A stretch of DNA of 64,000 nucleotides from Acidimicrobiales bacterium. Lineage in GTDB: Bacteria; Actinomycetota; Acidimicrobiia; Acidimicrobiales; Acidimicrobilacustridaceae. The stretch's first letter is position 1. Every line of letters begins with the position of its first letter. Shown here one piece after another: positions 39,282-58,400 of the stretch. The DNA is taken from the NCBI GenBank assembly GCA_025455885.1, contig JALOLR010000004.1, positions 124,001-188,000 of the forward strand, given 5' to 3'. A model generated the notes under the pieces. That model made no database searches. It saw nothing but the letters and a program-made list of their open reading frames with translations, and was not told the DNA's origin. A program made the translations under genes and the position numbers.

Positions 39282-39294
39282 TTTACGGTGTTCA
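39282..39294. promoter_or_regulatory. Inverted-repeat operator a, before the Rieske gene
   Basis: TTTAC-GGT-GTTCA, followed by C. The right half matches the island consensus TGAAC-N3-GTTCA perfectly and the left half at three of five positions. It contains a TACGGT -10 box (39284-39289), so occupancy would block transcription of the Rieske operon, whose start is 76 bp downstream. Confidence 0.55.
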
Positions 39295-39370
39295 CGACAT
39301 GGGGCCGCCCGAGGTGGTCGGCACCCTGGCGACACTCGGCGCCACCGGGCGCGAGGGGGCAAGGAGAGCC

Positions 39371-40585
39371 ATGGACACGACGCTCGAAGCGACGATCAGG
39401 GATCGGATCGAAGGGGAGAAGGTCAGGACGGCGCCGCCCCCCGACGCCATCGCGATCCCACCCATCCCGACCGGGCGCTACACCGACCCCGCGTTCCACG
39501 AGCTCGAGCGAGAGCGGGTCTTCGGGCGCAGCTGGCTCTTCGCCGGCCACGAGTCGGAATGGCCCGAGGCCGGTGCCTACCGGTTGACGACGCGGTCCGG
39601 GGCCCCGATCGTCGTGGTCCGTGGTGACGACGGGGTCCTCCGGGCCTTCTACAACTCCTGTCGCCACCGCGGCGCCCCGGTGACGCGCGACGAGTGCGGT
39701 ACGGCGCGGCGCTTGACCTGCCAGTACCACTCGTGGTCGTACGGCACCGACGGCACGCTGAAGGCCGTGCCCGACGCCCGGAGCTTCCCCGGGCTCGACA
39801 CCGCCTCGCTGGGGCTGGTGTCGGTGCGTTGCGAGACCTGGGACGGCTGGGTCTTCGTCAACGAGGACCTCGACGCCGTCGCGCTCCTCGAGTTCCTCGG
39901 CCCGATCGCCGACCAGATGTCCGAGATCGACGGCCGAGCCATGCGGGCCGTCGGCACCCAGCTGCACCACCTCGACTGCAACTGGAAGCTCATGGTCGAC
40001 GCCTTCCTCGAGGTGTACCACGTGCGGACCGTGCATCCCGACAACGCCGCGCTCCTCTACAACGACCAGTCGGTGACCGTCTCGATGCTGCCGAACGGCC
40101 ACAGCCGCCTGAACGTCGAGAAGCACGAGATGTTCCGCGACATGCCCATGGTGTCGGAGGAGCACGACAACCCTGCGGTCCCGCTGCTGTGGCGACAGAC
40201 CTCGACCTCGTTCGGGATCTTCCCGAACCTCGTGGTCCCGATGGACACGGGTGCGTTCACCTTCCTGTGCATGTGGCCGACCGGCGACACCACCACCGAG
40301 CTGGAGCTGCGGTGGTACGCACCGGCCTGGGCGGGTGACGACGTTCCCCAGGAGCACCTCGATCGCATGGAGCTCTTCGAGACGGTGATGGCCCAGGACA
40401 AGGCCAACATGGCGCCGATCCAGGCGTCGGTCTCCTCCCCGGGGGCCCGCCCCTTCCAGCTGGGCTGGCACGAGCGTTTGATCCACCACTTCGAACGGGC
40501 GGTCGACCTGGCCATCGGCCCTGACGACCTCCCGCCGGGCACCGCCGTCTCCGACGCCCTCGACGGGTTCGTGGAGCCACGGTGA
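39371..40585 (+). CDS. Rieske aromatic-ring-hydroxylating-type oxygenase, alpha subunit
   Basis: A 404-residue oxygenase. The Rieske [2Fe-2S] centre is complete: Cys97 and His99 in SCRHRGAP, Cys117 and His120 in TCQYHSWSYG. The mononuclear iron site lies in VDAFLEVYHVRTVHPDN with His217 and His222. Family members hydroxylate or demethylate aromatic, steroid or amine substrates; no beta-subunit gene follows, so it is of the homomeric type. ATG 39371 has AAGGAGAG upstream. The next gene starts inside its stop (GTGA). A match to the island operator precedes it. Confidence 0.93.
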   Translation: MDTTLEATIRDRIEGEKVRTAPPPDAIAIPPIPTGRYTDPAFHELERERVFGRSWLFAGHESEWPEAGAYRLTTRSGAPIVVVRGDDGVLRAFYNSCRHRGAPVTRDECGTARRLTCQYHSWSYGTDGTLKAVPDARSFPGLDTASLGLVSVRCETWDGWVFVNEDLDAVALLEFLGPIADQMSEIDGRAMRAVGTQLHHLDCNWKLMVDAFLEVYHVRTVHPDNAALLYNDQSVTVSMLPNGHSRLNVEKHEMFRDMPMVSEEHDNPAVPLLWRQTSTSFGIFPNLVVPMDTGAFTFLCMWPTGDTTTELELRWYAPAWAGDDVPQEHLDRMELFETVMAQDKANMAPIQASVSSPGARPFQLGWHERLIHHFERAVDLAIGPDDLPPGTAVSDALDGFVEPR

Positions 40586-41421
40586 GCGCCCGAGGGCGGG
40601 TGCGAGGACGGTCGGTCGCGGCGGGCGTCGCCGCGCTGGCCGTCCTGGTTGCGGGCTGCTCCAGCAGCGACGACGCCGGTTCGCCGGCCGCCGACCCCGC
40701 GACGACGGTCGCCTCAGCACTGCCCCCCGGGGCCGAGGACCTCGTGGGCCGCTACGCCCACTTCGACGCGGTCGCGTACCAGGACGACGCGATGAAGACG
40801 CTGATCATCAGCACCGGCTTCTCCGACCTGGAGCTGCGCGACGGCCAGCTGTGGAACCAGATGACCTTCTGCCATGCCGACACGGTCATGGACCAGGCCG
40901 TCGAGGTCTCGATCTCCGACGCGGCGACGGGGGCGATCAAGCCCATCGCCACACCGGTCGAGGTGACCGAGGTCGAGGGTCGGCTACGGGTCACGCGGCC
41001 GGCGACCCCGACGGCCATCGGCATCGTCCTCGCGGACCCGGCGGTCGAGGCGCTGCCGACCGACCCCGCCGATCCCCGCGTCATCGACGCCGACGGCGAC
41101 GGCAACCCCGGGGTGACGTCCTCGATCAAGGTGTCCGAGGACCTCCAGGGTGAGGTGTACCTCGCCCGTCGCGAGATCTTCGCCTACGACCTGATCCAGC
41201 AGAGCCCCGACCGGCTGGTCGGCTCCATCACCGACCGCTCCGAACAGCTGATCCTGGGGGCGAGCAACCCGCTCTTCCTGGCCAGCGCGCAGTGGGAGCA
41301 GATCGACGACCCGACGCGGAACCCGGTGATCTGGCAACGGGTCGACGCCGGCTGGGACTGCGCCCGCCTCGCCGCGGAGCGCCCCGGTCTCTTCCCGCCC
41401 AACCCGGTCATCGACTGGTGA
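40582..41421 (+). CDS. Lipoprotein translationally coupled to the Rieske oxygenase
   Basis: A 279-residue lipoprotein of unknown function. Its signal peptide (SVAAGVAALAVLVAGCSSS) has the lipobox VAGC. The mature part is beta-rich (MKTLIISTGFSDLELRDGQL, EVTEVEGRLRVTRPATPTA) with a DADGDGNPG loop that resembles a calcium-binding loop, and a Cys pair. The GTG overlaps the Rieske stop by four bases, so it is made together with that enzyme. A role in binding or presenting substrate outside the cell is only a guess. Confidence 0.82.
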   Translation: MSARGRVRGRSVAAGVAALAVLVAGCSSSDDAGSPAADPATTVASALPPGAEDLVGRYAHFDAVAYQDDAMKTLIISTGFSDLELRDGQLWNQMTFCHADTVMDQAVEVSISDAATGAIKPIATPVEVTEVEGRLRVTRPATPTAIGIVLADPAVEALPTDPADPRVIDADGDGNPGVTSSIKVSEDLQGEVYLARREIFAYDLIQQSPDRLVGSITDRSEQLILGASNPLFLASAQWEQIDDPTRNPVIWQRVDAGWDCARLAAERPGLFPPNPVIDW

Positions 41422-41439
41422 CCGGCGCCGCCGGCACCC

Positions 41440-43011
41440 TCAGATGGAACGGCCGCGGTCGGCCCACCACGGATCGCGGAGCTCGCGCTTGGTGAGCTTG
41501 CCGGCTGCGCTGCGGGGGAGCGCGACGTGGACCTCGAAGCTCCGCGGCACCTTGTAGCCCGCGAGGCGTGCTCGGCTGAACCCGGTGACCTCGTCGCGGA
41601 GCGTGTCGGACCACGCCTGCCCTGGACCCAGCGCGAGGGCGGCGTGCACCGACTCGCCCATCTCGTCGTCCGGGACGCCGAACACGGCGGCGTCGGCCAC
41701 CGCCGGGTGCTCGACGAGCACGCCCTCGATCTCGGCCGGATAGATGTTGACCCCGCCCGAGACGATCATGTCGATCTTGCGGTCGCTCAGGTAGAGGTAC
41801 CCCTCGTCGTCGAGGAACCCGATGTCGCCGAGGGTCCCCAGTCCACCGCTGCGGTGCGCCGCCGCCGTCTTCTCCGGCGCCTTGTGGTACTCGAACTCCG
41901 ATCCCATGAGGTTGCGGAACCAGATCTCGCCGGGCTCGTTCGGCCCGAGGGGTTCGCCGGACCCGTCGAGGATCAGGATCTCGATGATCTCGACCGGCCG
42001 GCCGACGCTGCCGGGGCGGGTGGCCCACTCCGAGGCGTCGATCATCGCCAGGAACCCGCCCTCGGTGCCGCCGTAGTACTCCGACACGATCGGGCCGACC
42101 CAGTCGATCATCCGCTGCTTGACCGACGGCGGGCAGGGGGCGGCGCCATGGACCACCCGCTGCAGCGACGATCCGTCGAAGGCCAGGCGGACCGGTTCGG
42201 GCAGGTCCAGCATGCGCATCATCTGGGTCGGCACGAGGTGAAGGTTGGTGATCCCGTGGCGGTCGATGAGCCCGAGGAGCTCCTCGGCGTCGAAGCGGTG
42301 CTGCAGAACGAGGGTCGCGCCGCAGCACAGCGAGGCGAGCCCGAAGACCCACTGCGCCGAGTGGTACAGCGGGCCGCAGACGCACATGACGTCGCGACCC
42401 CCGGGGGTGACGCCGATCAGCGGGGCCATCGAGTGGGCGATCAGCGTGAGCATCTCGGCGGGCCCGCCGATCGTGGAGAGGGTGGAGCGGACCCCCTTCG
42501 GCCGGCCGGTCGTGCCCGACGTGTAGAACATCGGCCCACCCCGCTGCGGATCCTCGATCTCGTCGCTGCGACTGGCGGCGAGCACGTCCTCGTAGGAGGC
42601 GAAGCCCTCCGGTGGTTCCGTGTCCCCCGTCAGCATCGTCGTCACCGGAGCCGGGGTGTCGGGGCCGGAGAGGGCCTCACCCACCACGTCCGCCCAACGG
42701 GGGTCCACCACGACGGCGCGGACCTCAGCGTCCGCCAGCACGTAGGCGACCTCGCGTACCACCCAGTGCCAGTTGACGGGGACCAGCAGCCAGCCGCCGT
42801 GGGCGCAGGCCAACGTGACCTCGATGAACTCGGCCTGGTTGCCGAGCATGGTCAGGACCGCGTCGCCCCGGACCAGACCACGGTCACGCAGGGCGTGGAC
42901 GAGTCGGGTGACCCGCTCGTCGAGCTCCGCCCAGGTGGTAGTGCCCCGGGCGTCGACGACCGCGGGTTCGTCGTGGCGCTCGGCCACGATCGGATTGAGG
43001 ATGGCGGTCAT
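41440..43011 (-). CDS. AMP-binding acyl-CoA synthetase/ligase
   Basis: A 523-residue adenylate-forming enzyme that activates a carboxylic acid, normally to its CoA thioester. Motifs: MFYTSGTTGRPKGVR (ATP loop), EYYGGTEGG, and DRKIDMIVSGGVNIYPAEIE with the hinge Asp; the catalytic C-terminal Lys is in SAAGKLTKREL. It resembles long-chain, steroid-type or aromatic acid ligases; chain length cannot be told. ATG 43011 lacks a ribosome-binding site but overlaps the TGA of a 32-codon leaderless frame. It converges on the lipoprotein gene and diverges from tetR across an operator. Confidence 0.92.
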   Translation of the reverse strand: MTAILNPIVAERHDEPAVVDARGTTTWAELDERVTRLVHALRDRGLVRGDAVLTMLGNQAEFIEVTLACAHGGWLLVPVNWHWVVREVAYVLADAEVRAVVVDPRWADVVGEALSGPDTPAPVTTMLTGDTEPPEGFASYEDVLAASRSDEIEDPQRGGPMFYTSGTTGRPKGVRSTLSTIGGPAEMLTLIAHSMAPLIGVTPGGRDVMCVCGPLYHSAQWVFGLASLCCGATLVLQHRFDAEELLGLIDRHGITNLHLVPTQMMRMLDLPEPVRLAFDGSSLQRVVHGAAPCPPSVKQRMIDWVGPIVSEYYGGTEGGFLAMIDASEWATRPGSVGRPVEIIEILILDGSGEPLGPNEPGEIWFRNLMGSEFEYHKAPEKTAAAHRSGGLGTLGDIGFLDDEGYLYLSDRKIDMIVSGGVNIYPAEIEGVLVEHPAVADAAVFGVPDDEMGESVHAALALGPGQAWSDTLRDEVTGFSRARLAGYKVPRSFEVHVALPRSAAGKLTKRELRDPWWADRGRSI

Positions 43012-43106
43012 CGTGCAGGACCCGTCGTGCGGGGGCCGTGCGGTCGCCGCCGCTGCCCGCGGTCCGCTCCCAGGGACGGCCGGACGCGGGGCGAGGCCGT
43101 GGTCAT
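43008..43106 (-). CDS. Leaderless 32-codon upstream frame coupled to the ligase
   Basis: A short basic frame beginning MTTASPRVRPSLG. Its ATG at 43106 is exactly six bases after a TACCGT -10 box, and its TGA overlaps the ligase ATG (ATGA). The ligase has no Shine-Dalgarno sequence, so ribosomes reading this frame would re-initiate on the ligase. Arg-rich composition in GC-rich DNA is common by chance, so the peptide may have no function beyond delivering ribosomes. Confidence 0.5.
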   Translation of the reverse strand: MTTASPRVRPSLGADRGQRRRPHGPRTTGPAR

Positions 43107-43112
43107 GGCGGA

Positions 43113-43118
43113 ACGGTA
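43113..43118 (-). promoter_or_regulatory. -10 box of the leader-frame/ligase transcript
   Basis: TACCGT on the minus strand, six bases before the 43106 ATG. At a 17-bp spacing the -35 position falls on 43136-43141, inside operator b. Confidence 0.6.
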
Positions 43119-43134
43119 GCAAGCCCCACGCCTC

Positions 43135-43151
43135 GGTGAACTCTGTTCACC
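43135..43151. promoter_or_regulatory. Inverted-repeat operator b, between ligase and tetR
   Basis: GGTGAACTCTGTTCACC is a perfect palindrome with 7-bp arms around a 3-base centre, the best copy of the island consensus. It covers the -35 position of the ligase promoter and lies 38 bp upstream of the tetR -10 box. A regulator site next to its own gene supports autoregulation. Confidence 0.75.
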
Positions 43152-43188
43152 CCGTGCCGCGCCGGCCGACCCCGAGCGACCCGACCGG

Positions 43189-43194
43189 TACAGT
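43189..43194 (+). promoter_or_regulatory. -10 box of tetR, leaderless spacing
   Basis: TACAGT, six bases, GTG 43201. Confidence 0.6.
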
Positions 43195-43200
43195 TCCGGC

Positions 43201-43797
43201 GTGACCGCACCCGTCGACCGACCACCGCTCCAGCGCGCCGCCATCATCGACGCCGCTCGGGACATGATCGTGACCGGCGGCCTCGAGGCGCTCTCCCTGC
43301 GGCGCCTGGCCCGTCAGCTCGGCGTGACCGCCCCTGCGCTCTACGGCTACGTGCGCTCCAAGCAGGACCTGCTGGGCGCCCTCGCCGAGATCGAGATCGA
43401 CCGGCTGGCGGCGCGCTTCGACGAGGTCGACGACCCCGATCCGATCGAACGCATCAGGGCCCACAGTCGGGCCTACGTCACCTACGCGCGGGACAACCCC
43501 GAGCTGTTCCGGGTGATGCTGTTGGCGCCGCCGGCGCTCCCCGCCTCGGGCCTCCCCGCCACGGCGGAGGCCCCGGCGACGACCATGGCGTTCGCCACCG
43601 CGACCGGTGCCATCGAGGACGCCATCGCCGCGGGCGCCATCGCCGCCGAGGACCCCCAGGTGGTGGCCCTCACGCTCTGGTGCGGCGCGCACGGGGTCGC
43701 CACCGTCCTGCAGCTCGGCCTGGCGCTGCCGCCGGAGGTCGAGGACGCCATGATCGACGAGGTCACCGACCGCCTGATCGCCGGCTATCGGGCCTGA
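43201..43797 (+). CDS. TetR-family transcriptional regulator with WHG-type C-terminal domain
   Basis: A 198-residue repressor-type protein. The N-terminal HTH spans ~10-55 (AAIIDAARDMIVTGGLEALS, then LARQLGVTAPALYGYVRSKQ). The ligand domain ends with LWCGAHGVATVLQLG, the Trp-His-Gly pattern of the TetR_C_33 (WHG) group. The GTG start is set by the TACAGT box. It stands beside the perfect operator copy and is the only regulator in the 37-59 kb island, so it is the leading candidate to bind the six inverted repeats. The ligand, probably a pathway intermediate or CoA ester, is unknown. Confidence 0.92.
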   Translation: MTAPVDRPPLQRAAIIDAARDMIVTGGLEALSLRRLARQLGVTAPALYGYVRSKQDLLGALAEIEIDRLAARFDEVDDPDPIERIRAHSRAYVTYARDNPELFRVMLLAPPALPASGLPATAEAPATTMAFATATGAIEDAIAAGAIAAEDPQVVALTLWCGAHGVATVLQLGLALPPEVEDAMIDEVTDRLIAGYRA

Positions 43798-43900
43798 GCG
43801 GGGGCGGGCCCGCGTCGCGCCGGAACCCGGGGGCGCGCCGCTCGGGCCCGGGGTGGGACCGTCGGGCCGAGGTGGTGGTGCGCCCCGGGTCCGACTGGGC

Positions 43901-43913
43901 TAAACAGTGTTCG
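43901..43913. promoter_or_regulatory. Inverted-repeat operator c, before the ABC importer
   Basis: TAAAC-AGT-GTTCG matches the consensus at eight of ten arm positions. It contains TAAACA (43901-43906), a plausible -10 box, and lies 72 bp before the substrate-binding protein start. Confidence 0.5.
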
Positions 43914-43985
43914 GCCGTCGTGGTCCGAGGCCTCCGGCCGGCGACCGAGCGGCGACACCATCCGCACGAGGGGGAGAGGCACACG

Positions 43986-45284
43986 ATGAGGCGCACCGCA
44001 CGGATCCGGACGTCCCTGGTCGCCGTCGCCGTGCTGCTCGTGGTCGCCGCAGGGTGCAGCGAGAGCGATCCCCAGGCCGCACCGACCGACACCGAGCCCG
44101 TCGCCTGCTCCAGCGACGCGCTCCTCGACTGCGCTCGCCGGTCCGTGCTCGCCCCCTACGTGCCCGGTGAGCCCACGAAGGCCACCGGCGAGCCGATCCG
44201 CCTCGGGATGATCAACCAGGAGAACACGCCGGCCGGTTCCTATCCCGAGCTGAGCCTCGCCGTGCAGGCGGGCATCGAGTTCATCAACGAGCAGATGGGC
44301 GGGGTCGACGGCCGGCCGCTCGTGCTCGACGTCTGCAACACGGAGTTCTCGGCCGAGGGGTCCACCTCGTGTGCCCAGACCTTCGTCGAGGAGGAGGTTC
44401 CTGCCGTGCTCGGCGGCATCGACGTGTTCGGCAACGGCATCGAGACGCTCGCCCAGAACGGCATCCCGTTCGTCGGGGGCATCCCCATCAGCGCCCAGTC
44501 CTTCACCTCCCCCAACTCGTTCCAGTGGAGCGGGGGGAGCCAGTCCGCAGGGGTCGCCTTCGGCTGGTACGCAGCCGAGGAGCTGGGTGCGAAGAAGGTG
44601 TCGATCGTCTACCAGGACTTCGGGTCCATCACCGACAGCGCCGAGGCGGCCCGAAAGGTCCTCGGCGACGCCGGGGCCGAGGTTCAGATGGTGCCGTACC
44701 CGGTCCTGGCCACCGACCTCAACCCCGCGCTCACCGCAGCCGCGTCGAGCTCGCCCGACGCGATGATCGTCTTCGCGGCCGACAGCGGGTGCAAGGCCGG
44801 GTTCGACGGTGTGGCCTCGCTGGGGATCACCGCCGCCACCTTCTACGTCGGGGCCTGCGCGGCGCCGGCGATCGTCGACCAGGTCAGCGTCGACAACACC
44901 GACGGCGTGTACTTCAACGTGGACGGCCCCCTGTCCGGCGACTCGGCGATGCCCGACGGCGAGCTCTACGAGGGCGTCGTCACCGCCTACGGCGACGGCC
45001 TCGATCCCGTCGGCGCCGGGACCGTGTCGTTCCGGTCGCTCATGAACCTCTACGCCATCCTGAGCCAGCTCGGGGGTGACATCACCCCCGGTGCCATCAC
45101 CGCCGCACTCCAGGCGACCGACGGCGCCCCGAACTTCGGCGGCCACCCCTACACCTGCGACGGTGAGCAGTTCGACGGCCTGCCGGCGCTCTGCTCCCCC
45201 CAGCAGATCCTCGCCCGGATGCAGGATCGGCAGCTGAGCCAGGTGACCGACTGGATCGACGTCGGTCGGATCTACCGCGGCTGA
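43986..45284 (+). CDS. Substrate-binding lipoprotein of a Liv-type ABC importer
   Basis: A 432-residue periplasmic-binding-type protein, class I (leucine-binding fold). The signal peptide ends in VLLVVAAGCSES with lipobox AAGC. The mature domain begins PIRLGMINQENTPAGSYPEL and contains GIEFINEQMGGVDGRPLVL, typical of the family. Members bind amino acids but also aromatic acids, amides and other small molecules. ATG 43986 has GGGGGAGAGG upstream. It is first in a four-gene importer operon preceded by operator c, so the bound ligand is probably the compound catabolised by the island. Confidence 0.92.
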   Translation: MRRTARIRTSLVAVAVLLVVAAGCSESDPQAAPTDTEPVACSSDALLDCARRSVLAPYVPGEPTKATGEPIRLGMINQENTPAGSYPELSLAVQAGIEFINEQMGGVDGRPLVLDVCNTEFSAEGSTSCAQTFVEEEVPAVLGGIDVFGNGIETLAQNGIPFVGGIPISAQSFTSPNSFQWSGGSQSAGVAFGWYAAEELGAKKVSIVYQDFGSITDSAEAARKVLGDAGAEVQMVPYPVLATDLNPALTAAASSSPDAMIVFAADSGCKAGFDGVASLGITAATFYVGACAAPAIVDQVSVDNTDGVYFNVDGPLSGDSAMPDGELYEGVVTAYGDGLDPVGAGTVSFRSLMNLYAILSQLGGDITPGAITAALQATDGAPNFGGHPYTCDGEQFDGLPALCSPQQILARMQDRQLSQVTDWIDVGRIYRG

Positions 45285-45310
45285 CCTCCCCAGAGCTCCG
45301 GAGCGTTCCC

Positions 45311-47341
45311 ATCAGCCAGTACCTCGGTTACCTGCTCGCCGGCCTCGGCGGAGGCGCGGTCATCTCCTCCCTGGCGCTCGGGCTGATCCTCACGCAGCGT
45401 TCGTCGGGGGTGGTCAACTTCGCCCACGCCGCCATGGGCATGTACGTCGCCTACGCCTACTTCGAGTTCCGCGAGACGGGTGACTGGGTCCTCCCGGTCC
45501 TCGGGCTGCCTGCACGCGTCCACCTGCTCACCCGGCCCACGCTGGTCACCGCTCTCGCCTTCGCGCTGGTCATCGGAACGGCCCTCGGGCTGGTGGTCTA
45601 CCTGCTCGTCTTCCGGCCGTTGCGTCGAGCGCCGGCGTTGGCCCGGGTCGTCGCCTCGCTGGGTCTGCTGCTCTACCTCCAGGAGATCGTGCGACTGCGG
45701 TTCCCGATCAGCGGTGCCTCGGTCGTCGTGCGTCGCCCCGTGCTGCCCGACGGGCCGGTCGAACTGCTCGGCGCCACCGTCACCGAGAACCGTCTGATCC
45801 TCGTCGCGTTGGTCGGCGCCGTCGCCGTGGCGTTGGCCGCGGTGTTCCGGTTCAGCCGTTTCGGGCTGGCCACGCGGGCCGCGGAGGGCAACGAGAAGGG
45901 AGCCCTCCTGCTCGGCATCGCGCCGGACCGGTTGGCGAGCATCAGCTGGGCACTGGCGTCGGTGCTCGCCGGCGCCGCCATCATCCTCATCGAACCCATC
46001 GCCGGCCTCAGCCCCACCACCTCGCTGCTCGTCATCCCGGCGCTGGCGGCGGCCCTGCTCGGCGGCCTGCACTCGTTCGGGATCGCCACCGCGGCGGGCC
46101 TGGCGATCGGCATGGCGCAGTCCCTGGTGTTGGGCTGGGCGGTGCGTCCGGACACCTCGATCATCCCCGACTGGCTCCCCACGACCGGCCTGCAGCAGAT
46201 CATCCCGGCGGCGGTGATCATCGGGGTGCTCGTCTGGCGAGGGGACGCGCTGCCGGATCGGGCCGCGGTCGCCGGCCGACGCCTGCCCCCCTCCCCGCAC
46301 CCTCGCCACATCGCGGTCTGGGCGGTCACGCTGGTCGGACTGGTCTCGGTCGCGCTCGTGACCCTCGGGGCCGGCTACCGCCAGGGCCTCATCGTTTCGA
46401 TGGTGTTCGCCCTGCTCGCCCTGTCCGTGGTGGTGCTGACCGGGTTCAGCGGGCAGATCTCCCTCGCCCAGCTCGCCTTCGCCGGCGTGGCCGGGTTCAC
46501 GTCGATCCGACTCACCGAGAACAGCGTCCCCTTCCCGGTCGCCCTGGTGGTGGCCGCGCTCCTGGCCACCGTCATCGGCGTCCTCGTGGGTTGGCCGGCG
46601 ACCAGGGTGCGGGGCATGAGCCTGGCCGTCGCCACCCTCGCGCTCGCGGTGGCCATCGAAGGTCTCGTGCTGGCCAGCCCCAACCTCTCCAACGGCCAGG
46701 CCGGTTCGTCGGCCCCCCGGCCCTACCTGTTCGGCATCGACGTGGGCGTCTCGGCCATCGGCGGCGACAACTTCCGTCCTGCCTTCGGTTTCGTCTGCCT
46801 CGGCGTGCTCACCCTGGCCGGCCTGGCGGTCGCCAACCTCCGCCGGAACCGCACCGGTCTGCGGTGGTTGGCGGTCCGGGCCAACGAGCGGGCTGCCGCC
46901 GCCGCCGGGATCGACGTCACGCGGGCGAAGCTGGGCGCCTTCGCCGTCTCGTCGTTCCTCGCCGGGCTCAGCGGTGTGCTCACCGCCTTCTCGGTGACCA
47001 CGCTGTCGCCGAGCTCGTTCGTGGTGATCGGCTCGCTGGTCGCGGTGGCGCTCACCTACCTGGCCGGCGTGTCGAGCGTGGGCGGAGCGCTGGTGGCCGG
47101 CCTCCTCGCCCAGGCCGGGGTGGTCGTGGTCGCCGTCGACGACATCTCCGGGTCCGAGGCCAACACCTATGTCTTCGCGATCAGCGGGCTGGCCCTGATC
47201 GCGGCGGCCATCTGGGCCCCGGCCGGGCTCACCGGGCTGGCGCGGGCGGGCCTCTCCCGGTCGACGCGGGCTGTGCCACCCGCGGCGGACCGGCCGGACC
47301 CGCAGGCCGAGGCGACCCAACCGGCGACGGTGGATCCATGA
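45311..47341 (+). CDS. Fused LivH-LivM permease of the ABC importer, non-canonical start
   Basis: Residues ~1-290 are a LivH-type permease (LILTQRSSGVVNFAHAAMG, then GLATRAAEGNEKGALLLGI) and ~330-650 a LivM-type permease (LTGFSGQISLAQLAFAGVAG and VRANERAAAAAGIDVTRAKLG), about 16-18 membrane segments in all. The family's first membrane helix (YLGYLLAGLGGGAVISSLAL) lies upstream of GTG 45410, the first ordinary start codon, so that start would delete it. The upstream frame has no ATG, GTG or TTG. An ATC at 45311, with GGAG seven bases before it, is my choice; CTG 45281 overlapping the previous stop is the alternative. Confidence 0.82.
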   Translation: MSQYLGYLLAGLGGGAVISSLALGLILTQRSSGVVNFAHAAMGMYVAYAYFEFRETGDWVLPVLGLPARVHLLTRPTLVTALAFALVIGTALGLVVYLLVFRPLRRAPALARVVASLGLLLYLQEIVRLRFPISGASVVVRRPVLPDGPVELLGATVTENRLILVALVGAVAVALAAVFRFSRFGLATRAAEGNEKGALLLGIAPDRLASISWALASVLAGAAIILIEPIAGLSPTTSLLVIPALAAALLGGLHSFGIATAAGLAIGMAQSLVLGWAVRPDTSIIPDWLPTTGLQQIIPAAVIIGVLVWRGDALPDRAAVAGRRLPPSPHPRHIAVWAVTLVGLVSVALVTLGAGYRQGLIVSMVFALLALSVVVLTGFSGQISLAQLAFAGVAGFTSIRLTENSVPFPVALVVAALLATVIGVLVGWPATRVRGMSLAVATLALAVAIEGLVLASPNLSNGQAGSSAPRPYLFGIDVGVSAIGGDNFRPAFGFVCLGVLTLAGLAVANLRRNRTGLRWLAVRANERAAAAAGIDVTRAKLGAFAVSSFLAGLSGVLTAFSVTTLSPSSFVVIGSLVAVALTYLAGVSSVGGALVAGLLAQAGVVVVAVDDISGSEANTYVFAISGLALIAAAIWAPAGLTGLARAGLSRSTRAVPPAADRPDPQAEATQPATVDP

Positions 47342-49710: not shown

Positions 49711-49726
49711 TGAACGCTGTTAACCT
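49711..49726. promoter_or_regulatory. Inverted-repeat operator d, between SDR and carotenoid oxygenase
   Basis: TGAAC-GCT-GTTAA matches the consensus at nine of ten arm positions. Its right arm overlaps TAACCT (49721-49726), a good -10 box for the oxygenase gene 52 bp downstream. The divergent SDR start is 64 bp away. Confidence 0.65.
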
Positions 49727-51269: not shown

Positions 51270-52991
51270 TCAGAACAGGTCGTCGCACTCGCGAGCGACC
51301 TCGCGGATGGCGCCGTGCAGCTCCTCGGGGACGGCGGCCATCAGCTCGTCGGTGAGCTCGTCGGAGAACCGCAGGCGCTCGGCGTCGACCAGGTCGTCGT
51401 GGGCCGGCATCCAGGCGGAGTGCAACACCAACGGCACACACTCCCGGTTCGTCCCCGCCAGGACGGCGACAGGACCCCGACCGACGGCGGCGGCGTCGAA
51501 GAGCTCCACCCGGAAGCCCGAGTCGGACAGCACCGGCTGCACCACGTAGCCGTCGTGGCCGCCCGGGTCCCCGCCGGCGTAGGCACTGCGGGCGGCGTCC
51601 TTCCCGCAGTCGCGGGGGGCGAAGGTCGGCGACGTGATGTGGTCCCCGAGGTCGGGGTACTCCCACCTCGCCTTCAGGTCCATCGACCCCCGCTCGAACG
51701 TGGCGAGGGCGCCGGGGGTCTCGTGTCGGAGCTGGTCGAGGTCGATGCGTCCGGCGTAGAGCTCTGCCGCCCGCTGTGAGATGTTCCCCGGGCGACACCC
51801 CTGGTAGGTCACGTGATGGAGCGTCGGCCTGGTCATCCCCTCGACGGACCAGTCCATGGCCGAGAGCTGCAGGTTGAACGTCCAGTCGTCGCGGTAGACG
51901 CCGCGCTCGACGGCCGTGCCGGTCGTCGGGTCGAAGAGGACCTCGACGATGCTCTCGGGGGCCATCGCCATGTTGTAGAGGCCGACCGCGGCCGGGTCGA
52001 CGGGGTTGCCGTTCACGTCGAGGTCGCCGGGCTTCAGGTAGAGGGCGAGGTCCATGAGGTCCATGCCCTCCCAGACGACCGAGATGCCGTCGGTGTCCTC
52101 CCAGCGAGCGTAGAAGTGGCCGGTGGGCGGGGACATGGCGAGCGTGACGGGGGTGACGGGCGTGCCGCTCGGCAGGCCCTCGAGCTGATCCTTGCGGATC
52201 AGCCACACGGGCACCTCGTCGTCGATGGTCAGCTCCCGCTCGCCGCCGACCATCTCCGCCGGGTCGGGCTTGAAGTTGCCCGAGTCGGCCAGGATGATCC
52301 AGTCGCGGGTCTGGCTCACGGTGTGCGTGGAGCCGCCGAACACGATCCCGTCGAGGGGCCAGTAGCGCACCTGTGTGCCGTCGGCGCGGTCGTAGCGGAC
52401 GACCGCCGGGCGCATCCCGAACGTCGGCTCCATCACGAAGTCGAGCTTGACGCTCCAGAGGCAGTCACGGTCGGGATCGGCGACGGGGTGTGCCGAGGAG
52501 AGGAGGAACGGCAGGATCCCCGGCGTGTCGAGCGAGCTCCCGCCCCAGCTGTCACGGTGGCCGACCTCGGCCACGAACTCGAGCGTCCCCGGGTGCAGCT
52601 CGACGGGTCGCCCCGCGTCCCAGGTGGTGAAGAGGCGACCGCCCCAGGGGAGGGGCGCGGTGTTCGACGCGTTCGCGGCGCCGAGCACCGACTGGTAGCC
52701 CGTGCCGCTCGTGGCGAACTGTGCGGGAAGCCGGTCCCAGAGGCGCTTCCCGGGGGACTGGATGGACCTTGTCTGCCACGCGAAGCGCCCCGGCGCGGCG
52801 CCCCGGGTGCCGGGTTCGAGGGCGAGGCGGCAGATCGCTCCCCAGTCGAAGATCCCGTAGTCCATGTCGGTGCAGTGCTGCGGGCTCGAGAACACCATCT
52901 CCCCGCTGATGTCGTCGGGCCACACGCCGTCGACGACCTCGAGCTCGAAGTCGGCGTGGGGGGCGGTCGTGAGGCATCGGGGTGTCGGCAT
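51270..52991 (-). CDS. Carotenoid-cleavage-oxygenase-family protein (second, divergent)
   Basis: A 573-residue member of the same beta-propeller family, clearly diverged from the first copy. Candidate iron-ligand contexts are SAHPVADPDRD, GGSTHTVSQTRDWII, GHFYARWED and VLHSAWMPAHDD near the C-terminus. It is longer than typical members, mainly in loops between blades. ATG 52991 has AGGGAGAG upstream; the longer frame runs through the operator and into the next gene. It converges on the first oxygenase gene and has its own operator (e). Whether it is an active cleavage enzyme needs its histidines checked against a structure. Confidence 0.85.
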   Translation of the reverse strand: MPTPRCLTTAPHADFELEVVDGVWPDDISGEMVFSSPQHCTDMDYGIFDWGAICRLALEPGTRGAAPGRFAWQTRSIQSPGKRLWDRLPAQFATSGTGYQSVLGAANASNTAPLPWGGRLFTTWDAGRPVELHPGTLEFVAEVGHRDSWGGSSLDTPGILPFLLSSAHPVADPDRDCLWSVKLDFVMEPTFGMRPAVVRYDRADGTQVRYWPLDGIVFGGSTHTVSQTRDWIILADSGNFKPDPAEMVGGERELTIDDEVPVWLIRKDQLEGLPSGTPVTPVTLAMSPPTGHFYARWEDTDGISVVWEGMDLMDLALYLKPGDLDVNGNPVDPAAVGLYNMAMAPESIVEVLFDPTTGTAVERGVYRDDWTFNLQLSAMDWSVEGMTRPTLHHVTYQGCRPGNISQRAAELYAGRIDLDQLRHETPGALATFERGSMDLKARWEYPDLGDHITSPTFAPRDCGKDAARSAYAGGDPGGHDGYVVQPVLSDSGFRVELFDAAAVGRGPVAVLAGTNRECVPLVLHSAWMPAHDDLVDAERLRFSDELTDELMAAVPEELHGAIREVARECDDLF

Positions 52992-53055
52992 GGTTCTCTC
53001 CCTGGTCCCGGCGCCAGAGGGCGACGGATGCGGCGACGACCGCGGCGATGGCGGG

Positions 53056-53076
53056 TGAACGGTGTTCAGCAGGGTA
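53056..53076. promoter_or_regulatory. Inverted-repeat operator e with -10 box, before the second carotenoid oxygenase
   Basis: TGAAC-GGT-GTTCA (53056-53068) matches all ten arm positions. On the minus strand a TACCCT -10 box (53076-53071) lies just upstream, so the operator covers the expected transcription start of the oxygenase gene. Confidence 0.68.
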
Positions 53077-53121
53077 TCCGCGCAAGGGGCCGCTGTCAGG
53101 CCATCCGTCGCCGGCGCGTCC

Positions 53122-54117
53122 TCAACGCCGGTCGAGCCGCAGGAGCCGGCGGGCGTTGGCGTCCATCGTCGCCGCCAGGGCGGCGTCGCCCCACGACGGG
53201 TCGGACGACTGGTCCCATCCGGCGAGGTTGGTGCCGGCCACGAGCCGGTCGGGTCCGAAGGCGCCGAGGAGGGCGGCGAGCGCCCAGGGCCCGCCCACGT
53301 GGGCGTCCCACCAGATCCGGCCCAGTCGCTGCGCCACCGCGCCGGGCTCTCGGAGCGCGCCCCGGGCCCACGGGCGGGTGCGGGCGGCGTGGGCCATGCG
53401 CTCGGCCAGCCAGGAGGTCGCCCCGCCGCCGTGGCTGATGCAGACGTCGAGACCGGGGTGTCGGTCGAGGACCCCGCCGAGGACGAGCGCCGACACCGCG
53501 AGGGTCTCCTCGTAGAGGAAGCCCAGCCACAGGTCGCCGTCGAAGCGCTCCAGCCGCTCGTCCCGTCGAGGACGGTCGATGCCGTCGGGCGCCGGGTGGA
53601 AGAACACGGGGACATCGAGCCCGACACAGGTCGCCCAGATCTCGTCGAAGGCCGGATCGTCGAGTGGACGCCCGAGATCGGTTCCCAGGTACGGCGCCAC
53701 CAGCCCCAACTCGCCCACAGCACGCTCGAGCTCGGCCCGGGCTCGCGGGGGATCCTGCATCGGGAGCTGGGCGAAGCCCCGGATGCGCTCAGGGGCCCGG
53801 GCCACCAGCGCCGCGAGCTCGTCGTTGTGCCGTCGACAGAAGCGGTCGGCCCACTCGGCCTCGACGTGGGAGAAGTAGGTGAGCGGGTTCGGGGACAGCA
53901 CCTGAACGTCGATGTCGGCGGCGTCCATGGCCTCGAGCCGGCGGTCGAGGTCCATGAACGGGCTGCCGCGGTAGCGCACCCCGACGAGGGTGTAGCTGCC
54001 GACCCGGAAGCACGGAGGCCGGCCGGCGGTCTCGTCGCCGTCGTCCAGCTCGGGGCCCAGATCTCCCGCGGCGCCGAGCACGGAGTCGAGCACGACGTGG
54101 GCGTGCAGGTCGATCAT
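53122..54117 (-). CDS. ACMSD-type amidohydrolase (amidohydrolase_2)
   Basis: A 331-residue metal-dependent hydrolase or decarboxylase of the ACMSD/uracil-5-carboxylate decarboxylase group. The metal site is visible as MIDLHAHVV (His5, His7), VFFHPAPDG, CISHGGGA and the catalytic Asp region near AGTNLAGWDQ. Relatives act on aromatic or ring-cleavage acids such as gamma-resorcylate or aminocarboxymuconate. ATG 54117 begins directly at the metal motif, four bases after the P450 stop; the longer frame is upstream extension. Last gene of a five-gene operon running from 58311 to 53122. Confidence 0.9.
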   Translation of the reverse strand: MIDLHAHVVLDSVLGAAGDLGPELDDGDETAGRPPCFRVGSYTLVGVRYRGSPFMDLDRRLEAMDAADIDVQVLSPNPLTYFSHVEAEWADRFCRRHNDELAALVARAPERIRGFAQLPMQDPPRARAELERAVGELGLVAPYLGTDLGRPLDDPAFDEIWATCVGLDVPVFFHPAPDGIDRPRRDERLERFDGDLWLGFLYEETLAVSALVLGGVLDRHPGLDVCISHGGGATSWLAERMAHAARTRPWARGALREPGAVAQRLGRIWWDAHVGGPWALAALLGAFGPDRLVAGTNLAGWDQSSDPSWGDAALAATMDANARRLLRLDRR

Positions 54118-54121
54118 CGGC

Positions 54122-55327
54122 TCAGAACACCACCGGGTACCGACGCCAGTATCCCCGGGCCGACTCGGGGTCGAGTTCGGCCGGGGCATCGGGGTCGGGT
54201 CGCCCACCGGCGGCCAGTACGGCGCGGACGGCCACCGGGACCAGGCCGTAGAGGTGGTCCTCGCCGGGCGGAGCCCCCAGGGAATCGGTTCCGGCGGCGA
54301 GCTCCTGGCCGATGCAGGCGTGCATGCCGAGGCCGAAGCTGAGGCCCCAGGGCGCCACGCCGGCGGGGAGGCGACGGTGGGGGTCGAAGCGGTCGGCGTG
54401 CTCGCCGAACGCGTCGGGGTCCCGGTTGGCCGCCATGAGGTCGATGACGACCTTGTCGCCCGGGTTGACGACGGCGCCGCCCTTCAGCGAGACCTCCTCC
54501 AGCGCCCATCGCATGGCGACGGGGCTCGACGGCTGCAGCCTCACCGTCTCGTGGACGCAGCGCTGGAGGAAGTCCATGTCCTGCCGCGCCCGTTCGGCGT
54601 CGGCGGGCGAGGTCGTCGTCATCTCGAAGATGCTGTGGAGCGTCCGCACGAACGCCGTGGCCGACGTGTGGGCGCCGGCGAGCAGGTAGAAGCACGTCTC
54701 GCGCAGCACCACATCGTCGGCAAGATCGAGGTCCTCCCGGTTGCGCAGCAGGACGGTGAGCACGTCCCTGGGGAGGTCCTCCTCGTCGATCTGCCCCGCC
54801 GCCAGGCGGGCGAGCTCGGCGCGACGACGGGCGATCGACGGCTGCAGGAACTCGGCGTCGAACTCGCGCAGGGCTCGCTCCACCTCCTGTCGCTTCGCGT
54901 CCCGGTCCCCGGTGTGGTGAGCGAGGGTCGCGCCCTCGATGAACAGCATCATGTAGGAGTAGAGGCGGAACGTCTCGTCAGCGGTGCGGGCGGGTCGGTC
55001 GACCCCCGCGGTGGACGCGGCCAGGTTCATCATCATCTGATGGCTCAGGCTGACCAGCTCGGCCCGGCCTCCGGCCACGTGCGGAGCGAGCGTCTCCTCC
55101 ACGATCGGCGGGAAGAGTTCGCGCTCGTACCGGGCGTGGGTCTCGCGACGGAACAGCCGGTTCTCGAGGCGCCGCCGCGACCGGTGCTCGTCGCCGTGGA
55201 GGTTGACGAGCACGTCCGCCATGACGACCTCGCCGGCGTCGTAGAGCGCCTGTCGGAGCTGCTTCTGACGGAAGGCGTCGCGGGCCTCGTCGTAGGCGGT
55301 GATCGTCACCTCGTTCGATGCGGTCAT
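54122..55327 (-). CDS. Cytochrome P450 (second of two)
   Basis: A 401-residue P450. The I-helix motif is LAGAHTSATAF, ExxR is HETVRLQ, and the heme ligand is Cys338 in SFGLGMHACIGQELA. The N-terminal ~30 residues are short and the C-terminal ~60 residues after the heme site longer and more polar than usual. No ferredoxin follows, so it may use the one encoded at 38.4 kb. ATG 55327 overlaps the ThuA-like stop (ATGA) and has AGGAG eight bases upstream. Confidence 0.93.
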   Translation of the reverse strand: MTASNEVTITAYDEARDAFRQKQLRQALYDAGEVVMADVLVNLHGDEHRSRRRLENRLFRRETHARYERELFPPIVEETLAPHVAGGRAELVSLSHQMMMNLAASTAGVDRPARTADETFRLYSYMMLFIEGATLAHHTGDRDAKRQEVERALREFDAEFLQPSIARRRAELARLAAGQIDEEDLPRDVLTVLLRNREDLDLADDVVLRETCFYLLAGAHTSATAFVRTLHSIFEMTTTSPADAERARQDMDFLQRCVHETVRLQPSSPVAMRWALEEVSLKGGAVVNPGDKVVIDLMAANRDPDAFGEHADRFDPHRRLPAGVAPWGLSFGLGMHACIGQELAAGTDSLGAPPGEDHLYGLVPVAVRAVLAAGGRPDPDAPAELDPESARGYWRRYPVVF

Positions 55328-56097
55328 GGTCGTCGCTCCTGGGTTGGTCGCCACTCGCCCGGGTGGCCGGTCGTGCCGGGCCCGGACGCACCGGGACTCT
55401 TCCTGGCGGCCCAGACCGCGGCCCGGCGGAGGATCGAGCGGTGGCTCGGGTGCTCGACGGAGGCGGGCTCGTGCCCCAGGACGTCGGTGACCGTGCGCCC
55501 CTCGCCGAACTCACGGGCCCACAGGACGGGACGGGGTCGGCCCGCGGTCTCGCTCACCAGGAGGGGGACGAGCCCCGGATCCGAGTCGAGGCGCTCGTAG
55601 ACCTCGTCGAGGACGGAGAAGGGTTCGAGCCCCGCGGTGACGTCGTGCCCACGCCCGGCGTCGGTGACCGTGACCGTGACGTCGCCGACGGGTTCGTGCG
55701 ACGAGGTGGCCCAGTTCCAGGACGCCCCGCACAGCGAGTGCCACGTGGGCTCGGCGTCGAAGCAGATGACGGCGGCGTGGAGGGCGAGGAGGCCGCCGCC
55801 GCCCGCGACGAAGCGCCCGATGGTGGACGCGCCGGCGGGGGGGAGGGTGTAGGGCTCGGCGTCGCGGAGGTGGGCGTAGCGCTCGGCGGCCATGCCCCAG
55901 TGGAGCGCGTGGACGGTCAGCAGGTCGTAGGGGTCACCGCCGGCGCGCTCGGGGCCCGACAGCTCGCACAACATCTCGGTGGGGTCGGTCACGACCGTGG
56001 TCTCGATGCCCTCCTCGTGCAGGAGGGCGGTGACCGACCCGGCGAGAGCACCGAAGTCGTGACCGGGTCCACCCGAGAGGAGCAGGTTGCGGGTCAC
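55324..56097 (-). CDS. ThuA-like domain protein
   Basis: A 257-residue protein with a glutamine-amidotransferase-like (ThuA) fold. It starts NLLLSGGPGHDFGALAGSV and contains GRFVAGGGGLLALHAAVICF, where His and Cys sit near the position of the GATase nucleophile elbow, then WARELGEG-like WAREFGEGRTVTDVLGHE. ThuA proteins occur in sugar and other catabolic operons without proven activity. The GTG overlaps the upstream SDR stop (GTGA). Confidence 0.85.
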   Translation of the reverse strand: MTRNLLLSGGPGHDFGALAGSVTALLHEEGIETTVVTDPTEMLCELSGPERAGGDPYDLLTVHALHWGMAAERYAHLRDAEPYTLPPAGASTIGRFVAGGGGLLALHAAVICFDAEPTWHSLCGASWNWATSSHEPVGDVTVTVTDAGRGHDVTAGLEPFSVLDEVYERLDSDPGLVPLLVSETAGRPRPVLWAREFGEGRTVTDVLGHEPASVEHPSHRSILRRAAVWAARKSPGASGPGTTGHPGEWRPTQERRP

Positions 56098-56915
56098 GTC
56101 GGGGGCGCAGTCCGGTCGCCGAGGCGCGGCCCCACCGAGTCGACCGCCTCGGGGCGGGGAAGGGTGGCGATCACCGACCTGGTGACCCCGCCGTCGACCA
56201 GGATCTCGGTGCCGTTCACGTAGCCGGCGGCGGGGGAGAGCAGGAACAGCACGACGGCCGCCACGTCGTCACCGGTGCCGAGCCGGCCCGTCGGCACCCG
56301 TTCGGATCGGCGGCGGCGGATGTCGGGATCGGCGTAGATCGGCTCGGACATGCCGGTGTCGATCAGCCCCGGGGCGACGGCGTTGACCCGGATGCCCAAC
56401 GGCCCCCACTCCAGCGCCATCTGCCCGGTGAGCAGGGCGATCGCCGCCTTCGTGGCCCCGTAGGCGCCGGCGTTGGGGCCGGGGGCGACGCCGTTCATGG
56501 AGGTGACGGTGACGATCGCCCCCGGTCGGCCGGTGTCGATGATACGACGGGCCACGGCCCGCGCCGTCAGGAAGGTGCCGGACAGGTTGACGTCGACGAC
56601 GGCCCGGAAGTCGTCGGCGGAGTGGGTGAGCAGCGGTCCGAAGCGGACGACGCCCGCGTTGCACACCACGCCGTCGGGCGCCGGGCGGCCGGTCTCGTCG
56701 GCGAAGCGATCGAGGGCGGCGTCCAGGTCGGTCTCGATCGTCGTGTCGGCGACCAGCGCGACGGCGCGGTCGCCGAGCCCGTCCGCGGTTCGGGCCGCCG
56801 CGGCGCCATCACGGTCGAGCACCCCGACGGTCCATCCCGCCCGGACGGCGGCCCCGGCGATGGCGGCGCCGAGGCCGTGGCCGGCGCCGGTGACGACGAG
56901 GCTGGACGGGCTCAT
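56094..56915 (-). CDS. SDR-family oxidoreductase
   Basis: A 273-residue classical short-chain dehydrogenase. The cofactor loop is VTGAGHGLGAAIAG, NAG is in VVCNAGVV, and the catalytic set is Ser in VTVTSMNG with Tyr-x-x-x-Lys in GAYGATKAAI. The C-terminus NGTEILVDGG is typical; about 25 extra residues follow it. A preceding Asp in VGVLDRDG suggests NAD rather than NADP. Second gene of the five-gene operon, 64 bp after the amidohydrolase. Confidence 0.92.
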   Translation of the reverse strand: MSPSSLVVTGAGHGLGAAIAGAAVRAGWTVGVLDRDGAAAARTADGLGDRAVALVADTTIETDLDAALDRFADETGRPAPDGVVCNAGVVRFGPLLTHSADDFRAVVDVNLSGTFLTARAVARRIIDTGRPGAIVTVTSMNGVAPGPNAGAYGATKAAIALLTGQMALEWGPLGIRVNAVAPGLIDTGMSEPIYADPDIRRRRSERVPTGRLGTGDDVAAVVLFLLSPAAGYVNGTEILVDGGVTRSVIATLPRPEAVDSVGPRLGDRTAPPT

Positions 56916-56979
56916 CGGCCGGGGCCGTCGTCAGAGCCGGCCAGAGCTCCGTGGTCACGCCCCGGGTCCGCCTCCGTCG

Positions 56980-58311
56980 TCACGGGTTCACCATCTCCCA
57001 GGTGAGGGGCTGCGCGGCCCACACCCCGACCTTCTCGCCGGGGAGCTGGTCGCGCTCGGGCCACGGGCGAGCGAGGTCCACCGCTCGGCCACGGGAGAAG
57101 ACGTGCCGGATTCGGCGGCGGTCGCCGAGGACACCGATGTCGGTGGAGGGATTCCCGTCGACCACGAGGACGTCGGCCTTGGCATCGGCGGCGATCACCC
57201 CGATGGAGCCGATCGGGAGGCGCAGGGCGATGGCGCCGTTGCGGGTGGCGCAGGAGATGGCCTGGAGGGGGTCGAGGCCCATGGCCTCGACCAGGATCTC
57301 CATCTCGCGGGCATGCCAGTGCCCGTAGGGGGTGAGGGCGAATCCGCTCTCCGACCCGCACAGGATGGGCACGCCGGCGTCGTGGGCCGTTCGCAACATG
57401 CCTGCGGTCGCGTCGATCTCGCCGCGGAACAGGTCGACCTGGGCCGTCGCCGCACCCACCTTGTCGCCGTGGTCGGCGAGGTTGGCGAGGAACGTGAACG
57501 TGGGGGCCACCGCCGCACCGCTCTCGACGATCGCCGCCACGGCCGCGTCGTCGAGATGGGACGCGTGGAGGATGAGGTCGACGCCGGCCTCGGCGGCGAG
57601 TCGCGTCGAGTCCGCGTTGCGGCAGTGGGCGATGGTGGGGGTGTCGAGCGCATGGGCGGTGTCGGTGACCGCCTTGAGCTCGTCGAGCGACCACACCGTG
57701 ATCTCGCCCCGGGTGTTGGGCAGCGAGCCGGTGACGTGGATCTTGATCCAGTCGGCGCCGTGCTTGACCTGCTGGCGGGTGGTGCGGACCATCTCCGCCC
57801 GGTCGGTCATCACGTGGGCGTAGCCGACCCGCCCGGAATCCGGGATGAGGCGCCCGGCGGTGCCGCCGGCCGCGGTGAGCAGGGCGTTGAGTCCGGAGGC
57901 CATGCGTGGGCCCTCGACCAGGCCGGCCTCGATGCCGTCGCGCAGGGCCGGTCCGAGGTCGTGGATGCAGTCGGCGTCGAGGAATCCGGTGACCCCGGCC
58001 CGGAGGAGCTTGGGCACGTTGAACGCCGCCACGAGCATCGCCGTCGACTGGGGGCGGTGGAAGAAGAGCTCGTCGTTGTTCGCCGGTTCGCCGAAGGTGA
58101 TGTGGCAGTGGGCGTCGATCAGCCCGGGCATCACCGTGCAGCCGGCGACGTCGATCCTGCGGACCTCGGGCTCGGCCCGTGTCGCCGCGTCGTCGCCGAC
58201 GGCGACGATCCGGTCGACCTCGATCAGCACGTCGGTGCCCGTCCGGGGCGCCGCTCCCGTGCCGTCGATCACGGCCCCCCCGACGAGGAGGACCTGTGTG
58301 CCTGCGCTCAT
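56980..58311 (-). CDS. Amidohydrolase, imidazolonepropionase-like
   Basis: A 443-residue amidohydrolase_1 member. The metal-binding HxH is in PGLIDAHCHITFG, a Lys in ADWIKIHVTGS is where relatives carry a carboxylated lysine or second-shell residue, and further His lie in PTIAHCRN and LILHASHLDD. Relatives cleave cyclic amides, prolidase-type bonds or lactone-like rings. ATG 58311 has GGGAGG seven bases upstream. It is the first gene of the operon and its promoter overlaps operator f. The longer frame crosses that operator and is not used. Confidence 0.9.
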   Translation of the reverse strand: MSAGTQVLLVGGAVIDGTGAAPRTGTDVLIEVDRIVAVGDDAATRAEPEVRRIDVAGCTVMPGLIDAHCHITFGEPANNDELFFHRPQSTAMLVAAFNVPKLLRAGVTGFLDADCIHDLGPALRDGIEAGLVEGPRMASGLNALLTAAGGTAGRLIPDSGRVGYAHVMTDRAEMVRTTRQQVKHGADWIKIHVTGSLPNTRGEITVWSLDELKAVTDTAHALDTPTIAHCRNADSTRLAAEAGVDLILHASHLDDAAVAAIVESGAAVAPTFTFLANLADHGDKVGAATAQVDLFRGEIDATAGMLRTAHDAGVPILCGSESGFALTPYGHWHAREMEILVEAMGLDPLQAISCATRNGAIALRLPIGSIGVIAADAKADVLVVDGNPSTDIGVLGDRRRIRHVFSRGRAVDLARPWPERDQLPGEKVGVWAAQPLTWEMVNP

Positions 58312-58381
58312 GGCCATGCCTCCCTCGTCACGAACTTCCGGCGTCCGGCGCTCCGAGGCTCCGGGCGCCGGGGGCACCTTC

Positions 58382-58400
58382 GGGTGAACAACGTTAACCC
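58382..58400. promoter_or_regulatory. Inverted-repeat operator f, divergent between amidohydrolase operon and SDR
   Basis: GGGTGAACAACGTTAACCC: near-perfect palindrome, arms GGGT(G/T)AAC, consensus TGAAC-N3-GTTAA. On the minus strand it contains TAACGT (58396-58391), a -10 box for the five-gene operon. The divergent SDR starts 114 bp away on the plus strand. Confidence 0.7.

Follow-up and report, generated by a model that had tools for sequence, protein, structure and literature searches.

This analysis deals with a stretch of 64,000 nucleotides from the genome of an Acidimicrobiales bacterium (3.29 Mb in 33 contigs), located on contig JALOLR010000004.1 and corresponding to G000:C4:124001-188000 in our numbering. 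The whole stretch, which has a GC content of 72.5%, is referred to here as the window. It contains a putatively catabolic gene island in which six short inverted repeats, named sites a to f, are distributed around a gene for a TetR-family regulator. An earlier reading of the DNA letters, referred to as the sequence-only reading, had proposed that these repeats and the genes next to them form one coordinated, TetR-repressed regulon. The comparison with related genomes strongly supports one regulon around this TetR protein, as the sites are conserved, regulator and sites co-occur, and the same gene families lie behind the sites elsewhere. The gene total rises slightly, from about 16 in that reading to about 17 in our count.

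The island begins with site a (39282..39294, TTTACGGTGTTCA, 21.2 bits in the matrix described below), whose centre lies 83 bp upstream of the gene for a Rieske oxygenase alpha subunit (39371..40585, + strand; Pfam Ring_hydroxyl_A and Rieske). Among the PDB matches of this protein, those to carnitine monooxygenase span most of its length. It is followed by a conserved lipoprotein, recognised by eye (40582..41421, + strand), which has no Pfam family and is predicted to form a beta-barrel. Its structural model, with a predicted local distance difference test score (pLDDT) of 71.0, gave no Foldseek match at E <=0.001, and the best VIA-align matches (Z 9-10) were de novo designed and outer-membrane barrels, which are uninformative for function. 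An AMP-binding acyl-CoA ligase (41440..43122, - strand; Pfam and NCBIfam), with a likely start at about 43011, is divergent from tetR, and site b (43137..43149, TGAACTCTGTTCA, 24.7 bits) lies between the two, its centre 58 bp before tetR. The TetR-family regulator (43201..43797, + strand), the proposed repressor, has the DNA-binding and C-terminal domains expected of the family, namely TetR_N (PF00440, 5.7e-12) and TetR_C_33 (PF13305, 2e-12). Site c (43901..43913, TAAACAGTGTTCG, 21.2 bits) precedes an operon for a Liv-type ATP-binding cassette (ABC) importer on the + strand, consisting of a substrate-binding protein (43986..45284; Pfam Peripla_BP_6), a LivH-LivM fusion permease (45410..47341; two BPD_transp_2 stretches in Pfam), a LivG-type ATPase (47338..48099) and a LivF-type ATPase (48096..48839), the last two also assigned by Pfam. 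The true start of the permease lies upstream of 45410; between 45285 and 45410 there is no clear ATG, GTG or TTG at the expected N-terminus, and the likely start is an ATC at 45311.

In the second half of the island, the short-chain dehydrogenase SDR_d (48900..49646, - strand), recognised by inspection of its translation, is divergent from the carotenoid-oxygenase-family protein CCO1 (49778..51208, + strand), with site d (49711..49723, TGAACGCTGTTAA, 23.2 bits) between them. CCO2 (51270..52991, - strand) is a divergent member of the carotenoid oxygenase family, assigned by Pfam and by its fold, in which four histidines are kept, and it is preceded by site e (53056..53068, TGAACGGTGTTCA, 25.9 bits). 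Five further genes follow on the - strand: the amidohydrolase AH2 (53122..54207; Amidohydro_2, ACMSD/decarboxylase-like), a cytochrome P450 (54122..55354; Pfam), a ThuA-like protein (55324..56097; Pfam), the short-chain dehydrogenase SDR2 (56094..56915; Pfam) and the amidohydrolase AH1 (56980..58317; Amidohydro_1, prolidase/ochratoxinase-like). Site f (58385..58397, TGAACAACGTTAA, 25.6 bits) separates AH1 from the divergent short-chain dehydrogenase SDR3 (58514..59266, + strand; Pfam), whose start was set by eye at an ATG inside the open reading frame 58439-59266. Near the island, a Ferritin_2-like protein with a twin-arginine translocation signal is encoded at 61362-62294.

All six repeats were found where the sequence-only reading had placed them, with first bases at 39282, 43137, 43901, 49711, 53056 and 58385. 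They are intergenic, and according to our own gene starts their centres lie at a distance of 58-83 bp from the nearest start codon of a module gene. The form TGAAC-N3-GTTCA/GTTAA given for them holds for sites b, d, e and f, and sites a and c match it at eight of the ten fixed bases only. Site b is indeed a perfect palindrome (7+3+7). The overlaps with -10 and -35 elements that had been read into the sites found no support, as a sigma-70-type scan of 39100-58700 returned 0 promoters (0.3 expected) and is uninformative at such a GC content. In a 19-bp matrix built from the six sites, the sites themselves scored 21.2-25.9 bits and nothing else in the 64 kb exceeded 12.3 bits; the sequence-only reading had seen no further site by eye in the gaps between the genes of the window. 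Since this gap within the window arises partly by construction, the weight rests on the tests in relatives. The consensus of the operator, derived from 46 sites, is GGTnAACACTGTTCACC.

In the window, the motif TGAACNNNGTTMA occurs at four places with 6 strand-matches in all, compared with 0.02 expected from dinucleotide shuffles. Genome-wide, GGTNAACNNNGTTNACC with at most one mismatch occurs at 8 places, four of which are sites b, d, e and f. A covariance-model scan of the same genome, in which 150 of 614 candidates were scored and which is no proof of absence elsewhere, returned these four sites and missed sites a and c and a site on contig C8 discussed below. Many equally good sites in coding sequence, which would have spoken against the regulon, were seen neither in the window nor in these non-exhaustive genome-wide scans. 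Looser patterns match widely: TGAACNNNGTTCA with at most two mismatches occurs at 541 places in the genome, compared with 180 for the reversed pattern. Such an abundance of short palindromes is what an origin of the six sites by chance would draw on, an explanation that we regard as practically negligible and reject, since the sites are conserved at orthologous promoters and stand out against permuted matrices, as described below. Elsewhere in the genome, at G000:C5:48132-48162 (L065), two TGAAC-N3-GTTCA palindromes, TGAACGTGGTTCA and TGAACATGGTTCA, lie 18 bp apart; they have a low score in the island matrix and perhaps belong to another regulator.

The TetR protein was sought in 61 genomes, including its own. 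A match at E <=1e-10 was obtained in 42 of them and a match at E <=1e-30, which was taken as an orthologue, in 17. In the alignment of the orthologues, the helix-turn-helix region ranks among the best-conserved parts. Where TetR is 78-80% identical (L046-L048), the gene order is kept, SDR_d has orthologues at 77-81%, and, within the limits of the stretches compared, sites lie before the Rieske gene, the importer, the CCO1/SDR_d pair and CCO2. The counterpart of site a stands at the same place before the Rieske gene in L046 and L047, while those of sites c and d are found in all three loci; a site before AH1, as site f in the window, occurs in L066, L067 and L068. In four loci with a TetR identity of 49-55% (L049-L052) the genes are arranged differently, but sites of 15 bits or higher still precede CCO2, CCO1 or the Rieske gene. 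The sites thus stay at promoters while the gene order varies among loci, and the conservation that the proposed regulon had led one to expect is observed at orthologous and rearranged promoters. Further away (L053-L060, TetR 39-49%), no module cluster was seen and no site of at least 15 bits except one of 16.9 bits in L057, which is distant from module genes. Of the two sites in L061 (16.8 and 15.1 bits), the former lies between the genes for a substrate-binding protein and a CCO1 relative.

A second set of relatives was obtained by a contig profile search with the CCO2 alignment, of which the best 80 of 105 loci were used. Five of these (L066, L067, L075, L076, L100) were already in the TetR-based set, and L066 and L067 come from G021 and G022, two genomes of the same family as the source. 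The 80 loci comprise 34 named strains from eight Streptosporangiales genera and 46 metagenome-assembled genomes (MAGs); 19 of the MAG titles refer to an Acidimicrobiia taxon, 24 just to an actinobacterium, and the remaining three to Akkermansiaceae, Deltaproteobacteria or Bifidobacterium breve. A CCO2-promoter site was defined as a hit of the window-only matrix of at least 13 bits within 150 bp upstream of CCO2; L096, which is without an upstream stretch, was left out, so that 45 MAG loci were evaluable. Such a site was found in 31 of the 45, including 12 of the 19 with an Acidimicrobiia title, and in 44 of 4394 control windows of the MAG loci. By this definition none of the 34 Streptosporangiales loci has a site (4 of 4247 control windows), and a TetR relative of at least 37% was not found in them either. 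The three loci with odd titles (L084, L089 and L102, named in the above order) carry actinobacterial-type CCO2 genes, in two cases together with the operator; errors in the labelling or binning of the contigs seem a likelier explanation than transfer.

A set of 26 loci (425,506 bp) has, besides CCO2, two or more other module genes with an identity of at least 40%. Here the window-only matrix gave 58 sites of 15 bits or higher, whereas 60 palindromic matrices with permuted columns averaged 2.3 such sites and never exceeded 12. Of the 58 sites, 53 precede a module gene, whose nearest estimated start is no more than 142 bp away; 1 is in a gene and 4 are elsewhere. The 54 loci outside this set gave 11 sites of at least 15 bits in 1.02 Mb, some of which are the CCO2-promoter sites of MAGs already mentioned. 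A search for recurrent neighbours in 30 loci yielded mainly apparent shadow reading frames. In three loci (L066:7338-8402, L067:6978-8450 and L077:6784-8310), an additional AMP-binding ligase relative, checked with Pfam in L066, lies between P450/ThuA and AH2; the window has none at this place.

In addition, a sequence-only model built from the 46 sites was run on the 61 genomes, with 128 candidates scored per genome. It matched in 21 genomes, namely in 13 of the 17 with a TetR orthologue and in 8 of the 44 without (Fisher p 3.7e-5). Six of the 13 are known to have provided training sites (the source genome, G003, G005, G006, G021 and G022; G003 via an accession prefix shared with L071), and when the training genomes are left out, 7 of 11 compare with 8 of 44 (p 0.0055), one of the seven, G059, sharing sequence with the training locus L069. 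Both p-values are optimistic because related MAGs are not independent samples. The matches comprise 23 contig places outside the loci already seen, of which 20 were fetched (the other three lie in G027, G024 and G034) and 19 were left after removal of L172, a training locus. At 13 of the 19, a CCO1, CCO2, ligase or importer gene follows the site, although this count includes some distant paralogues (30-36%) and genes up to 279 bp away. Sorted by genome, a module gene follows at 12 of 14 places where TetR is present and at 1 of 5 where it is absent. The six sites without a module gene are those in L167, L177, L181, L182, L183 and L184. L182:3690 and L183:155, from G016 and G018, which have no TetR match at E 1e-10, have TGATGAACRGTGTTCACCA in common, in L182 beside an alpha/beta hydrolase; these probably are operators of a different regulator with similar binding preferences.

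This distribution also bears on the question of which protein binds the sites. Another regulator could do so, either by itself or jointly with the island TetR, and one candidate is a TetR_C_33 paralogue at G000:C8:188200 (L062:2698-2716; 33% identity to the island TetR in tblastn), which has AGTTTAACAGTGTTCAACT with 19.2 bits just upstream of its own start codon; the model matches in some genomes without an island TetR orthologue fit this as well. We consider it improbable, as the sites track the island TetR across genomes, in the absence of the orthologue they rarely precede module genes, and tetR itself is located among the targets and, in part of the relatives, is preceded by its own site. 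The site at the paralogue may possibly reflect cross-talk or a shared ancestral operator.

Several observations weigh against the assignment of the sites to the island TetR. The model has no match in four of the 17 genomes with an orthologue, and its matches in the 8 of 44 without one mean that similar palindromes probably serve other regulators. Before CCO2, 14 of the 45 MAG loci are without a site of at least 13 bits, including 7 of the 19 titled Acidimicrobiia, and on the short contig L064 (3.7 kb), which encodes relatives of CCO2, CCO1 and TetR (45-52%), no site reaches 15 bits. The similar site before the start of the C8 paralogue means that the binder could be shared. Finally, site b has no counterpart in the six nearest TetR loci, where the best score is 3.9 bits, and the 200 bp before tetR contain a site of at least 15 bits in 7 of 15 named loci but not in the other 8; of the seven, L102-L104 look like near copies and the site of L141 overlaps the estimated start. 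TetR-type local repressors often, though not always, have an operator at their own promoter. Autoregulation through site b is not seen in the closest relatives and has a parallel in some other lineages, so that it seems to come and go.

On balance, the six repeats very probably are operators of the TetR protein encoded at 43201-43797 and control the uptake and breakdown genes of the island. In the sequence comparison, the palindrome at the target promoters is conserved together with its proposed regulator, as is expected of a TetR regulon. In the proposed mechanism, a TetR dimer would bind the 17-19-bp palindrome near the promoters and would repress, rather than activate, about 17 genes. Binding of a pathway substrate or of an acyl-CoA intermediate would release the regulator from the DNA. 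The gene products comprise the Liv-type ABC importer for uptake, the ligase for activation with CoA and, for oxidative and hydrolytic breakdown, the two carotenoid-oxygenase-family enzymes, the Rieske oxygenase, the P450, the two amidohydrolases and the three short-chain dehydrogenases.

Clues to the nature of the substrate come from the two carotenoid-oxygenase-family proteins, both of which exceed the Pfam RPE65 cut-off of 27 bits (CCO1 429.2 bits, CCO2 62.8 bits). CCO2 has no phmmer match in the PDB at E 0.01. H168, H223, H292 and H524, judged by eye against the family motifs to be the four iron ligands, are kept in 33 of 33 alignment rows, and all 50 listed rows of a second look with VIA-align are carotenoid-oxygenase-family structures, the model itself being of low confidence (pLDDT 55.0). 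CCO1 has its best PDB matches among plant CCD1 variants (267 bits), above the bacterial lignostilbene dioxygenases (about 194-202 bits; PbLSD and NOV1 about 201-202). Its best NCBIfam equivalog is the 8'-apo-carotenoid 13,14-cleaving dioxygenase with 292.4 bits, below the cut-off of 675; the lignostilbene dioxygenase equivalog gave 278.5 bits, below the cut-off of 800.

These lignostilbene matches to models and structures, together with Rieske, short-chain dehydrogenase and amidohydrolase partners that would be compatible with aromatic breakdown, allow the island to be seen as a sphingomonad-type pathway for lignin dimers, which we nevertheless consider unlikely. Lys135 of PbLSD contacts a resveratrol hydroxyl in docking (PMC6097328). 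At this position CCO1 has Trp, and all 19 orthologues of at least 40% identity have Trp, Met or Leu; the missing lysine weakens the case for lignostilbene cleavage by CCO1, which moreover scores higher with plant CCD1. Among the window proteins scanned with Pfam there was also no ring-cleavage dioxygenase. Because CCO1 is without the lysine that holds the phenolic hydroxyl in lignostilbene dioxygenases, our leading but tentative guess for the substrate is a non-phenolic alkene, perhaps an apocarotenoid-like isoprenoid.

Alternatively, the carotenoid oxygenases could function in the retinal or carotenoid metabolism of the cell itself, with an anabolic regulon. The genome does contain family matches for a phytoene synthase (C2:178351-179115) and a microbial rhodopsin (C18:1730-2404), and CCO1 and CCO2 are its only two RPE65-family matches. 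However, a separate match to the Blh-type beta-carotene dioxygenase family (C8:167559-168338) weakens a retinal-supply role for the two proteins, and the regulon holds an importer, a CoA ligase, a Rieske oxygenase and amidohydrolases, so that we regard an anabolic role as very unlikely. A catabolic regulon is preferred, and it may be, though this is a tentative proposal, that it represents an undescribed pathway of Acidimicrobiia, in which an apocarotenoid or similar polyene from the environment, such as debris of algal or plant pigments, is taken up and split by means of a dedicated Liv-type importer, a Rieske oxygenase and at least two carotenoid oxygenase paralogues, under the control of one TetR and one operator.

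The sequence-only reading did not recognise the island as a described system, and in the open-access papers searched we likewise found no description of it, nor any that pairs Acidimicrobi with carotenoid oxygenase. One operator motif ties together a recurrent, apparently unstudied gene set in Acidimicrobiia and other actinobacterial MAGs, so that scattered genes annotated as "carotenoid oxygenase family protein" become one testable pathway. The motif can be used for locating pathway genes in related genomes, and the TetR regulator could act as a sensor for the pathway substrate.

Among known systems, the island resembles the cholesterol regulons of KstR and KstR2, local catabolic repressors of the TetR family in actinobacteria, in that one TetR protein and a short inverted-repeat operator cover several units for uptake, CoA ligation and oxygenation. 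The KstR operator has AAC/GTT half-sites, as has that of the island. In contrast to KstR, the half-sites of the island operator are separated by a 3-bp spacer, and carotenoid oxygenases instead of sterol enzymes form the core of the gene set; membership of the island TetR in the KstR family itself was rejected, at 27.6 bits compared with an NCBIfam cut-off of 280. With the lignostilbene pathways of sphingomonads, whose dioxygenases are named lsdA-lsdH (PMC12997858), the island shares the use of carotenoid-oxygenase-family enzymes in oxidative catabolism, but it differs in the lack of the phenol-binding lysine in CCO1, the divergent CCO2, and the presence of an ABC importer and a TetR regulon. 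CCO1 is similar to apocarotenoid-cleaving oxygenases (ACO, CCD1, Mycobacterium tuberculosis CCO) in having Trp-Glu at the position expected for Trp149-Glu150 of ACO, residues known from ACO mutant titles and presumably equivalent, and it differs from them in its score below the cut-off of the 13,14-cleaving model and in its catabolic gene setting. The regulon is a new one of the familiar TetR-controlled kind, with an unusual gene content.

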